Source of the DNA: Entomospira culicis
GTDB taxonomy: Bacteria > Spirochaetota > Spirochaetia > WRBN01
NCBI RefSeq assembly: GCF_028748145.1
Contig: NZ_CP118181.1
Coordinates: forward strand, 441,433 to 505,432
Length of the DNA stretch: 64,000 nucleotides
Direction of reading: 5' to 3'
The position numbers and the translations under genes are program-made. The notes beneath the pieces are model-generated. The model made no database searches. It was not told the DNA's origin and worked only from the letters and a program-made list of their open reading frames with translations. Of this stretch, positions 38,165-44,421 are shown in pieces (the stretch's first letter is position 1; every line of letters begins with the position of its first letter).

Positions 38165-39169
38165 ATGAGTGTGGACAAAGAAGATAAACTAGGCGATTTT
38201 TTACTAGAGAAGACCGAGAAAATGTTAACATGGCGCAAGCGACATAAAATGTTGTCGCGTGAGCGATCACGGCGTAAAGGGTTTTTCCTTGATCTCCTTA
38301 CAAGTATCCCCAGCACCTTATTGATTGTCTTTTTACTTAATTTATACGTGATTCAAGCCTATGTGATTCCCTCAGAGTCGATGAACACAACGTTGCTCCC
38401 AGATGATCGTATTTTTGTCGACAAATTCCATTATGGTCCTGAAATTTGGCTTGGGGTGGACAAACATTTGCCTGCCATTAATCCTGTGGTGCGTGGACAG
38501 ATCATCACGTTCCCCAATCCCGATTATGAGAGCAAAGGGGTTATCTTTGAGACACTACGTCGATTCCTCTTTTATATTTCTTTAACTTCTGTAGACATCG
38601 GGCGTGATGCACAAGGCAATCCGCCTATTGATCTTTTGATTAAGCGTGCTGTCGGCTACAACGGTGATCGCCTAATTTTCCGTGATGGGGAACTCTTCAT
38701 TAAGGGCGAAGGTGAGAGCTTTGAGCTTCCTGAACACTTCTTTCAACGGGTCAATAACATCTCCTATTATACGCAACGTGGGTACACACAAGATAATAGC
38801 GAACTGGTTGCCAAGCTCGCGGAGTATTCGATCTATCGCGATTTACGCTTAACCCTACCCGCTCATTTAGAGCGATTTGAAGAATTTTCTCAAGAGCGCA
38901 CCCGTTATTTAGGGCGCATCACGCAAGGCAATCCTTTTCCTAGGAGTTTAGCCAGCATGATGATTTATGCAAACCGTCAAGAGAAGTTGGATGATTACTA
39001 CCGCCATAATCGTGGGATCTATGTCCCACATGGCTATGTTTTGCCCTTGGGCGATAATCGCGACAACTCTTTAGATGGGCGCTACTTTGGGGTTATTCCA
39101 CAAAAAATAGTACAAGGTAGGGCATTTTTACGTATGTGGCCTTGGGATAGAATAGGTGGAATTCACTAA
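38165..39169 (+). CDS. lepB: Signal peptidase I
   Basis: Removes signal peptides on the outer face of the inner membrane. 334 aa. One membrane anchor (about residues 45-65), catalytic Ser72 in 'IPSESMNTTLLPDDR', catalytic Lys160 in 'LIKRAVGYNGDRL', and box E 'LPLGDNRDNSLDGRYFG' near the end. Between boxes D and E lies an insertion of about 100 residues, mostly helical and charged (about 180-285). No ribosome site precedes the ATG; a near-consensus promoter ends 7 nt upstream. A second SPase-like gene follows after 5 nt. Confidence 0.95.
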   Translation: MSVDKEDKLGDFLLEKTEKMLTWRKRHKMLSRERSRRKGFFLDLLTSIPSTLLIVFLLNLYVIQAYVIPSESMNTTLLPDDRIFVDKFHYGPEIWLGVDKHLPAINPVVRGQIITFPNPDYESKGVIFETLRRFLFYISLTSVDIGRDAQGNPPIDLLIKRAVGYNGDRLIFRDGELFIKGEGESFELPEHFFQRVNNISYYTQRGYTQDNSELVAKLAEYSIYRDLRLTLPAHLERFEEFSQERTRYLGRITQGNPFPRSLASMMIYANRQEKLDDYYRHNRGIYVPHGYVLPLGDNRDNSLDGRYFGVIPQKIVQGRAFLRMWPWDRIGGIH

Positions 39170-39174
39170 ACACC

Positions 39175-39900
39175 ATGAGAAAGAAGGTTAAATTTCGCAA
39201 ACATTCGTATCAACAAACTCGCGCGATGATAAAGCAGATCTTTCGCTATGTACTCTTTATTTTTCTTTTGATTGCGCTTTTAACCTTTACAAAGTTTGCT
39301 CTCGTGGCCACTTATCGGGTTGAAGCGGAGGGGATGTCGCCCTATTATCCTAAGGGTAGTATGGTGATGGCAAATGCCTTTGGCTTAAGTGATTTTTATG
39401 ATCATTTACCTCTTAATAAAGAGATTAAGCGAGGGCACGTTGTCTTATTGCAAACGCATCAGGAGAAGGAGGAGCAATCATGGCTAGGGTACTTGTTCAA
39501 TCCGGGGTTACGCTTTATTTCGGGTAATTTTTTCTGGATTAAGAGTAAAAAAGAGCGCAGTGGCATTCCCCATCTCATGATGAAGCGCGTGATTGCCCTG
39601 CCGGGGGATCGGATTCGGCTAGAGGGCAATGAGGTCTTTGTCCAGACTCCCTCGCACACCTTTTTTGTGAGCGAATTTGAGGCCTCATCGTTACAATATG
39701 AGATTACAACGCCCTTGCGTCGAGAAGATTGGTTGCCCTTCTCGCCTTTCTCGGGTGATTTGGTTGAGTATCTCCTAGGCGAGGATGAATACTTTGTTCT
39801 AGGCGATAACCGTACGCTTATTAACGATAGCCGCAATTTTGGTCTCATCACAAAACGCGACATCCATGCGGTGGTACTCTTTAAGTACTTGGGTCGGTAG
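39175..39900 (+). CDS. Signal peptidase I-like protein lacking the usual catalytic serine
   Basis: A protein of 241 aa with an N-terminal anchor (about residues 22-42). The position of the catalytic Ser-Met pair reads Gly53-Met54 in 'RVEAEGMSPYYPKG'; the next residue is Ser55. The Lys box is kept ('LMMKRVIALPGDRIRL', Lys137), as is box E ('LGDNRTLINDSRNFGLI'). It is therefore either an inactive partner of the upstream enzyme, an enzyme using Ser55 with a shifted register, or something with a new role. It is 5 nt after lepB and surely co-transcribed. Confidence 0.85.
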   Translation: MRKKVKFRKHSYQQTRAMIKQIFRYVLFIFLLIALLTFTKFALVATYRVEAEGMSPYYPKGSMVMANAFGLSDFYDHLPLNKEIKRGHVVLLQTHQEKEEQSWLGYLFNPGLRFISGNFFWIKSKKERSGIPHLMMKRVIALPGDRIRLEGNEVFVQTPSHTFFVSEFEASSLQYEITTPLRREDWLPFSPFSGDLVEYLLGEDEYFVLGDNRTLINDSRNFGLITKRDIHAVVLFKYLGR

Positions 39901-39965: not shown

Positions 39966-41762
39966 ATGAATGCAGAGAAATTACGAAGATTATTTATTGG
40001 CTTTTTTACACAGCATGATCATGTGGAGATTTCTGGTCGATCGGTAATACCGGAAAACGATCCCACAGTGCTTTTTACCACGGCGGGCATGCATCCATTG
40101 GTGCCCTATCTTCTGGGTGAGCCTCATCCTTCGGGGCGACGTTTGACCGATGTGCAAAAGTGTATCCGCACAGGCGATATTGAGAGTGTTGGTGATGCGC
40201 ATCACTTAACGTTTTTTGAGATGCTGGGCAACTGGAGCTTAGGCGACTACTTTAAATCAGAGATGATTGCGATGAGCTATCAATTTTTAACCTCGCCAGA
40301 TTACTTGGGTATCGACCCTTCTCGGTTGCATGTTACGGTGTTTGCCGGCGATGATGAGGTTCCCCGTGATGAGGAGTCGGCGCGCTTATGGCAAGAGATG
40401 GGCATCGCTCCTGAGCGTATCTACTTTTTAGGACGCGAGGATAATTGGTGGGGACCCGCCGGACAGACCGGCCCTTGTGGGCCTGATAGCGAGATGTTTT
40501 TAGATACCGAAAAAGAGCCCTGTAGCGCCGAGTGTCGACCGGGTTGTAGTTGTGGCAAGTACATTGAGATTTGGAACGATGTCTTTATGGAGTACGACAA
40601 GCAAGAGGATGGATCTTATCTTCCTTTAAAGATGAAAAATATCGATACAGGCATGGGTTTGGAGCGTACCCTCTGTCTCTTGTTGGGTAAAAAAAATGTC
40701 TACGATACCGAACTCTTTCAACCGATTATCCAGAAAATTGAAGAGATTTCGGGTCATCGCTATACTGGCGAAGAGAGCGAAGAGACGACGAAAGCCTTTC
40801 GTGTGATCGCCGATCATATTAAAACCGCTACTATGATTATGAGTGATGAGCGTGGCATTCGCCCAAGCAATGTGGGGCAGGGGTATATCTTGCGCCGTTT
40901 GATTCGTCGTGCGGTTCGATTTGGGCGGAAACTGGGCATTGAGGTATCATTTTTGCCACAGCTTGCCGATGTCGTGCTAGATATTTATCGAAATAGTTAC
41001 CCAGAAATGCAAGATAAGCGTAATTTTTTGCATGACGAGTTACGCTTAGAAGAAGAACAATTTAGTCGCACACTGATGCAAGGCGAGCGTGAATTTCTCA
41101 AAATGTTGCCCTCTTTATTGAAAAATCCGCAAAAGATGATGAGTGGTCGCTTGGCCTTTAAGCTCTACGATACCTATGGGTTTCCGATTGAGTTGACCGA
41201 GGAGTTAGCGCGCGAGCATGGCTTAGGTGTCGATCGTACAGAGTTTGATGCGGCCTTTGCCAAGCATCAAGAGGCAAGTAAAGCGGGCGCGGATAAGCTC
41301 TTTAAGGGTGGTTTGGCGGATGATAGCATGGCCAGCACGCGTTATCATACGGCGACACACTTACTGAATGAGGCATTACGGCGTGTCTTGGGCGATGGCG
41401 TGCATCAGGCGGGTAGTAATATTACGCCAGAGCGTTTACGTTTCGATTTTAACTGGAATGATAAGTTAAGCGAAGAGCAAATCGTACAAGTAGAGGCGTT
41501 GGTGAATGCACAAATTGAGGCGAATTTACCTATTGGGTTTGAAGTGATGTCGATTGAAGAGGCAAAAAATATCGGCGCACAGGCAATGTTTGAAGGTCGT
41601 TATGATGAAAAGGTGAAGGTCTACCGCATGGGCGACTTTTCCGTTGAGGTCTGTGGTGGGCCACATGTGGAACATACTGGCGAGTTAGGCAAATTCAAAA
41701 TTGTCAAGGAGCAATCCAGTAGCCGTGGGGTGCGACGCATCAAAGCGATTTTAGTGGATTAA
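39966..41762 (+). CDS. alaS: Alanyl-tRNA synthetase, short form
   Basis: Class II synthetase of 598 aa. The catalytic domain has 'FTTAGMHPLVPYLLG' and 'DAHHLTFFEMLGNWSLGDYF'. The tRNA-recognition helices follow, then the editing domain with 'HTATHLLNEAL' (about residues 460-470) and 'VCGGPHVEHTGELG' (about 560). The protein stops right after editing. The C-terminal DHHA1/C-Ala domain of the usual 870-residue enzyme is absent, as in other spirochaetes that I recall with enzymes near 600 aa. An extra Cys-rich stretch 'CSAECRPGCSCG' lies near residue 186. It is predicted to be leaderless. Confidence 0.97.
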   Translation: MNAEKLRRLFIGFFTQHDHVEISGRSVIPENDPTVLFTTAGMHPLVPYLLGEPHPSGRRLTDVQKCIRTGDIESVGDAHHLTFFEMLGNWSLGDYFKSEMIAMSYQFLTSPDYLGIDPSRLHVTVFAGDDEVPRDEESARLWQEMGIAPERIYFLGREDNWWGPAGQTGPCGPDSEMFLDTEKEPCSAECRPGCSCGKYIEIWNDVFMEYDKQEDGSYLPLKMKNIDTGMGLERTLCLLLGKKNVYDTELFQPIIQKIEEISGHRYTGEESEETTKAFRVIADHIKTATMIMSDERGIRPSNVGQGYILRRLIRRAVRFGRKLGIEVSFLPQLADVVLDIYRNSYPEMQDKRNFLHDELRLEEEQFSRTLMQGEREFLKMLPSLLKNPQKMMSGRLAFKLYDTYGFPIELTEELAREHGLGVDRTEFDAAFAKHQEASKAGADKLFKGGLADDSMASTRYHTATHLLNEALRRVLGDGVHQAGSNITPERLRFDFNWNDKLSEEQIVQVEALVNAQIEANLPIGFEVMSIEEAKNIGAQAMFEGRYDEKVKVYRMGDFSVEVCGGPHVEHTGELGKFKIVKEQSSSRGVRRIKAILVD

Positions 41763-41814: not shown

Positions 41815-42813
41815 TTACGCTTTTCCTGCGGAACCAAGAACGTTTTGATTCTTGTACATGTAGAGTTTTTTGAGCTCATCACGTGCAGGCCCGAGGTATT
41901 TGCGCGGATCGAATTCGGATGGTTGCTCGGCGAAAACCTTACGGATCATCGCAGTCATAGCAAGGCGACCGTCGGAATCGATGTTGATTTTACAGACAGC
42001 GCTAGCAGCGGCACGGCGAAGTTGTTCTTCTGGAATACCAACGGCATCAGGCACTTTGCCACCGAATTGCTCGATGATGCGTACGTACTCCATGGGTACG
42101 CTAGAAGATCCGTGAAGAACGATAGGGAAACCAGGAAGACGCTTTTCGATCTCTTCGAGAATGTCGAAGCGGAGTTCTGGTGGAACCAAGACGCCATCGG
42201 CATTGCGGGTACATTGATCGGGGGTGAATTTGGTGGCACCATGACTGGTTCCAATCGAGATAGCAAGACTATCAACACCGGTACGCTTGACGAAATCTTC
42301 GACTTCATCGGGCTCGGTGTAGGTGTGATGCTCGGCAACCACGTCATCTTCGATACCAGCAAGGATACCAAGCTCACCTTCAACGGTTACGTAGTGCTCT
42401 TGACTATGAGCAAAATCAACCACTTGCTTGGTCAGTGCAACGTTCTCTTCGTAAGGAAGGTGGCTACCATCGATCATAACGGACGAGAAGCCAGACTCGA
42501 TACACTCTTTGCAGAGCGCCAAGCTGTCGCCATGGTCTAGGTGAAGGACGATAGGGATATCGTATCCGAGCTCTTTAGCATATTCGGTGGCACCTTTAGC
42601 CATGTTGCGAAGCAAGGTCGCGTTGGCATACTTGCGTGCACCCGAAGAAACTTGTAAAATGACGGGACTCTTGGTCTCGACACAGGCTTGAACGATGGCT
42701 TGAAGTTGTTCTAGATTATTGAAGTTGTAGGCAGGAATCGCATACTTGCCAGCCATGGCTTTAGCGAATAGGTCTTTGGTGTTTACCAAACCTAAATCTT
42801 TGTAACTAACCAT
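41815..42813 (-). CDS. fba: Class II fructose-bisphosphate aldolase
   Basis: Zinc-dependent glycolytic aldolase of 332 aa. 'AIPAYNFNNLEQLQAIVQA' at the N-terminus, 'IPIVLHLDHGDS' with the catalytic Asp and zinc-binding His, 'SVMIDGSHLPYEENV', and 'VEGELGILAGIEDD' with a zinc ligand Glu. 'SIGTSHGATKF' supplies another His, and 'VLHGSSSVP' with a further His follows. Codon use is uniform, as for a highly expressed gene. An AGGAG site precedes the ATG. A small stem-loop (about 42846-42864) lies in its leader. Confidence 0.97.
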   Translation of the reverse strand: MVSYKDLGLVNTKDLFAKAMAGKYAIPAYNFNNLEQLQAIVQACVETKSPVILQVSSGARKYANATLLRNMAKGATEYAKELGYDIPIVLHLDHGDSLALCKECIESGFSSVMIDGSHLPYEENVALTKQVVDFAHSQEHYVTVEGELGILAGIEDDVVAEHHTYTEPDEVEDFVKRTGVDSLAISIGTSHGATKFTPDQCTRNADGVLVPPELRFDILEEIEKRLPGFPIVLHGSSSVPMEYVRIIEQFGGKVPDAVGIPEEQLRRAAASAVCKINIDSDGRLAMTAMIRKVFAEQPSEFDPRKYLGPARDELKKLYMYKNQNVLGSAGKA

Positions 42814-42986: not shown

Positions 42987-43060
42987 AAACCAGAAAAGAC
43001 CGACTAGCAATAGTTGGTTGGTTATTTTAGCATAATGAAGCTTTGTAGGAAGGTAAACGT

Positions 43061-43255
43061 ATGGAAGATGAAAACAAAGAAGCTCTCGTGGTTCGTTCTA
43101 AAGTGAAGAGCTATATAAAAGAGAAGAGCGATGGGATGAAGTGCTCGGAGAAGGTGATCGATATCTTGTCTGACCGCGTAAGGGAGCTTTGTGATGCTGC
43201 CATCGAGAATGCCAAGCGCGACAAGCGTAAGACGGTACAAGAGAAGGATTTTTAG
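43061..43255 (+). CDS. Bacterial histone-fold protein (single, compact histone)
   Basis: A protein of 64 aa. The layout fits a histone fold: helix 1 'VVRSKVKSYIKEK' (residues 10-22), the long helix 2 from 'CSEKVIDILSDRV' through 'CDAAIENAKRDK' (about 28-54), then the loop-strand 'KRKTVQEKDF'. That last part is the Arg-Lys-Thr-Val...Asp signature of archaeal histones. It ends right there, so helix 3 is reduced or missing, as in the dimeric bacterial histone HBb of Bdellovibrio and its relatives. The charge is basic near the ends. It would bind DNA as a dimer. AGGAAGG precedes the ATG, and the gene stands alone with its own terminator between the glycolytic genes fba and gap. Confidence 0.85.
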   Translation: MEDENKEALVVRSKVKSYIKEKSDGMKCSEKVIDILSDRVRELCDAAIENAKRDKRKTVQEKDF

Positions 43256-43279: not shown

Positions 43280-43314
43280 AAAAAACCTCACCTGCTGGTG
43301 AGGTCTTCTTTTCT
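43280..43314. terminator. Bidirectional terminator between the histone-like gene and gap
   Basis: An 8-bp stem (43285-43292 with 43297-43304) around TGCT, with an A run on the left and a T-rich tail on the right. Confidence 0.9.
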
Positions 43315-43326
43315 CTTTAAGAGAGA

Positions 43327-44421
<1,095 letters not shown>

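Follow-up and report, generated by a model that had tools for sequence, protein, structure and literature searches.

Genes and signals at the locus

The locus lies in a window of 64,000 nucleotides from Entomospira culicis, which is the whole stretch of DNA that we analyzed. It contains an intact ORF encoding a histone of 64 residues, flanked on one side by fba and on the other by gap (Table 1). Because both neighbors are encoded on the minus strand, the histone gene stands alone, as the original prediction of a monocistronic gene had it. The spirochaete host suggested from the sequence was also correct, the genome carrying FlaA genes. The gene is preceded by a usable ribosome site, as had been proposed, whose pairing with the anti-Shine-Dalgarno sequence has an energy of -7.8 kcal/mol, near the -8.0 kcal/mol in the nearest relative. 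Downstream, a terminator-like hairpin is followed on each strand by a T-rich tail and could thus end both the histone gene and gap transcripts. No consensus sigma-70 promoter was found between 42700 and 43400, and when the leader was compared by eye with that of the nearest relative, there was no evident similarity that would point to a conserved upstream element. A 9-pair hairpin lies about 40 nt 5' of the histone start codon, and none was seen by eye in the nearest relative's histone leader. Farther upstream, two adjoining genes look by eye like signal peptidase I paralogues, and the alanyl-tRNA synthetase encoded next to them is only 598 aa long, with Pfam matches to the catalytic and second additional domains and none to the C-terminal domain.

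Table 1. Features of the histone locus and layout of the histone.
Feature	Position	Strand	Details
Signal peptidase I-like gene	38165-39169	+	
Signal peptidase I-like gene	39175-39900	+	
Alanyl-tRNA synthetase gene	39966-41762	+	
fba	41815-42813	-	divergent neighbor; class II fructose-bisphosphate aldolase; PF01116, E=1.9e-94
Hairpin	42998-43019		
Shine-Dalgarno AGGAAGGT	43047-43054	+	6 nt ahead of the histone ATG; basis: sequence
Histone ORF	43061-43255	+	ATG start; 64 codons; product MEDENKEALVVRSKVKSYIKEKSDGMKCSEKVIDILSDRVRELCDAAIENAKRDKRKTVQEKDF, then stop
Terminator-like hairpin ACCTCACC-TGCT-GGTGAGGT	43285-43304	.	
gap	43327-44409	-	convergent neighbor; glyceraldehyde-3-phosphate dehydrogenase (GAPDH); PF02800 and PF00044
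Histone helix 1	to residue 22		residues 2-22 in the AlphaFold model
Histone loop 1	residues 23-29		
Histone helix 2	residues 30-53		
Histone loop 2	residues 54-60		
Histone helix 3	residues 61-63		one turn; DSSP on the AlphaFold model

The position between two glycolytic genes had been read as a sign that the protein may be abundant. When the window's proteins were searched by tblastn against 35 related histone loci with flanks of up to 10 kb (a few of them from one same genome), neither fba nor gap was found near the histone at any of them, and only some genomes of one family have a local histone neighbor in common. The setting thus carries no information, and we dropped synteny as a functional clue. 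The codon adaptation index (CAI) of the gene, with ribosomal proteins as the reference, is 0.63, which falls inside the range of ordinary window genes and is attained by 18% of stretches of equal length, a mild bias. The case for high abundance made from the glycolytic neighbors consequently falls away.

The locus encodes an alpha3 histone

The closest match of the product in the PDB by phmmer is HBb (Bd0055) of Bdellovibrio bacteriovorus, a bacterial dimer alpha3 histone (PDB 8cmp, 8fvx, 9ezz, 9f0e), with an E-value of 3e-10. It is followed by HLp of Leptospira perolatii, a bacterial face-to-face (FtF) alpha3 histone (9qt0-9qt2; E=4e-7), and by HTkC (9f2c; E=7e-5). Pairwise BLOSUM local scores give the same order (128, 106, and 86, respectively). 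The generic models Pfam PF00808 (E=6e-4, just under the cut-off) and NCBIfam NF043032 match weakly, below their curated cut-offs. An AlphaFold model built from an alignment of 17 sequences has a mean pLDDT of 87.7. When this model was compared with the PDB by Foldseek, the best eight matches were alpha3 histones (HBb, HLp, and HTkC chains), the remaining listed matches being other histone-fold proteins or nucleosome entries, although E-values are modest (best 4.9e-3, with a TM of ~0.6). The histone fold and the relation to HBb that were originally predicted are thus upheld by both the phmmer search and the model.

Further features agree with this assignment. Helix 3 consists of three residues (61-63), within the three to four seen in alpha3 histones, and the alpha3 motif RxTxxxxD, with its RD clamp residues, can be recognized in the sequence as R56-K-T58-V-Q-E-K-D63. 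With 64 aa and a single fold, the protein differs from the pseudodimeric DUF1931 type, which has two histone folds per chain. The reduced helix 3 of the original prediction is present, but it is no peculiarity since the alpha3 family as a whole is defined by a short third helix (PMC11390915). Likewise, almost all homologues stop no more than three residues past the clamp Asp, which shows that the abrupt C-terminus is normal. Together, these findings confirm that 43061-43255 is a genuine alpha3 single-domain histone gene, similar to that of HBb. Less favorable to an HBb-like function, the protein is near neutral in charge (16 K/R versus 15 D/E), and its acidic N-terminal MEDEN may weaken binding.

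Contact residues point to a bacterial dimer histone

Several types of alpha3 histones have been distinguished, including a tetrameric FtF type and a bacterial dimer type (PMC11390915, PMC12701072, PMC11317129). The dimer type lacks the Arg and Asn of FtF tetramers (PMC11390915), which in HLp are R49 and N53, the residues joining dimers (PMC12701072). We mapped HBb and HLp residues onto the histone using phmmer alignments and alignments of multiple relatives. Of the ten main HBb DNA-contact residues (T8, S9, K10, K12, K16, N22, S24, K52, T53, and R57; PMC11317129), seven are kept, S9, K10, K12, K16, S24, K52, and T53 corresponding to S13, K14, K16, K20, S29, K57, and T58, while the other three, T8, N22, and R57, are changed to the basic residues R12, K27, and K62. 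The RD clamp of HBb is likewise retained, R51 and D58 corresponding to R56 and D63 and the helper D49 to D54, and the helix 1 lysines typical of the dimer type (11, 13, and 17 in the published logo) are found as K14, K16, and K20. The positions of HLp R49 and N53 are occupied by N50 and D54, and the protein is therefore best read as a DNA-bending bacterial dimer histone. The residue test discriminates, since an FtF-type histone encoded on a Deltaproteobacteria-labelled contig (L020:3232-3420) has both FtF residues and is much nearer HLp (score of 184) than HBb (97).

Overall, the histone shares with HBb its length, the truncated helix 3, the RD clamp with helper Asp, the KT motif, the SKVK start of helix 1, a conserved Cys in helix 2, and coexistence with HU. 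It differs by an identity of only ~50%, a loop 1 that is one residue longer, the three substituted contact residues, an end directly after D-F, and the acidic N terminus. Only two features set it apart from the other histones aligned, namely R12 and the insertion of one residue in loop 1. The extra residue, Gly25 (codon 25), is found in no bacterial relative aligned and weighs somewhat against the HBb-like reading. As for the cysteines, C28 in loop 1, a Thr in HBb, is common to a large spirochaete subset, and C44 is widely conserved.

The original prediction had grouped HBb with a Leptospira histone, which proved to be incorrect since the latter is a tetrameric FtF histone that wraps DNA, and the protein studied here has dimer residues. 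That it might itself be an HLp-like tetramer, wrapping ~60 bp of DNA, is very improbable. FtF histones are indeed reported from Spirochaetota (PMC11390915), and HLp has the host phylum in common with our histone, as well as the fold, the RD clamp, and the identical DF chain end, and the length of loop 1 equals that of HTkC. Nevertheless, the two residues that join HLp dimers are replaced, RTTV in HLp is RKTV here, and the histone scores nearer HBb.

HU coexistence and a putative second nucleoid protein

The window genome has one HU-type gene, located outside the window and adjoining an rpsT-like gene. HU is also present beside HBb in Bdellovibrio (PMC10627809), whereas Leptospira is reported to lack it (PMC12701072). 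Since HU is encoded in the same genome, the histone adds to HU and does not replace it. The organism may use the histone as a nucleoid protein, as had been proposed, but with HU also encoded it need not be the sole or main one.

Could the histone fold serve another task, such as the regulation of a few genes or an adaptor function between proteins, with no general DNA packaging? We consider this unlikely, if somewhat less so than a tetramer. The absence of a clear high-expression sign in codon usage, the near-neutral charge, and the presence of HU, which could do the packaging, are all compatible with such a task, and it has been cautioned that not every protein of this kind must be a genome organizer (PMC11390915). 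On the other hand, nearly all HBb DNA-contact residues are kept, and in Bdellovibrio HBb coexists with HU and is more abundant than any other protein in the nucleoid fraction (PMC10627809). HBb and the Leptospira histone are both abundant in their own hosts (PMC10627809).

The histone is thus probably of the bacterial dimer, HBb-like type and would be a second architectural nucleoid protein beside HU. By homology to HBb, we infer that it dimerizes, binds DNA, and bends it. Two chains would pair head to tail via helix 2. The paired loops, which carry the KT motif, and the SK with which helix 1 begins would hold the DNA backbone at the minor groove irrespective of sequence, and the histone would bend the DNA in the manner of HBb, alongside HU.

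Distribution in Spirochaetia and selection

A survey of related spirochaetes, suggested as a check on the original prediction, returned a histone homologue in 64 of 395 sampled genomes of the class Spirochaetia (16%), that of the window included. The gene is near-universal in some families, being found in both genomes of the window's own family, in 25/26, 7/8, 4/4, and 4/4 genomes of families f26, f22, f39, and f9, respectively, and in no genome of the large families f8, f19, and f24 within the same survey. We excluded a weak match in genome G033 (locus L035), as it falls within a long, unrelated frame. HU is present in 382 of the 395 genomes and accompanies the histone in 63 of the 64 histone-positive ones, the exception being a genome that is 81% complete (G168).

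Codon comparison of G000 with G001 showed synonymous sites to be saturated. Pairwise comparisons within the nearest well-sampled genus gave dN values of 0.007-0.05 and dS values of at least 0.39, with dN/dS values of at most about 0.06 (median ~0.02), indicating that the protein is kept by selection. This strong purifying selection, the E-value of 3e-10 to HBb, and the homologues across the class exclude a chance ORF. It is conceivable, although we hold this view only tentatively, that the class had the histone from early on and that several large families lost it, and that many lineages have a two-protein chromatin in which a conserved HBb-type histone and HU share the nucleoid.

Significance

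Bacterial dimer histones of Spirochaetia were already listed by Schwab et al. in 2024 (PMC11390915). The protein described here belongs with them, in the same class and the same subfamily, and is therefore a well-supported further member of a known family and no new kind of protein. What our survey adds is the breadth of histone occurrence across the class Spirochaetia, which contradicts a 2025 preprint that restricts histones among the spirochaetes to Leptospira (PMC12236494). That histones package DNA in bacteria is recent knowledge, and the direct experiments in the literature cited here concern Bdellovibrio and Leptospira. Since Spirochaetia with the histone nearly always have HU as well, the division of labor between the two proteins becomes testable in a further group of bacteria.
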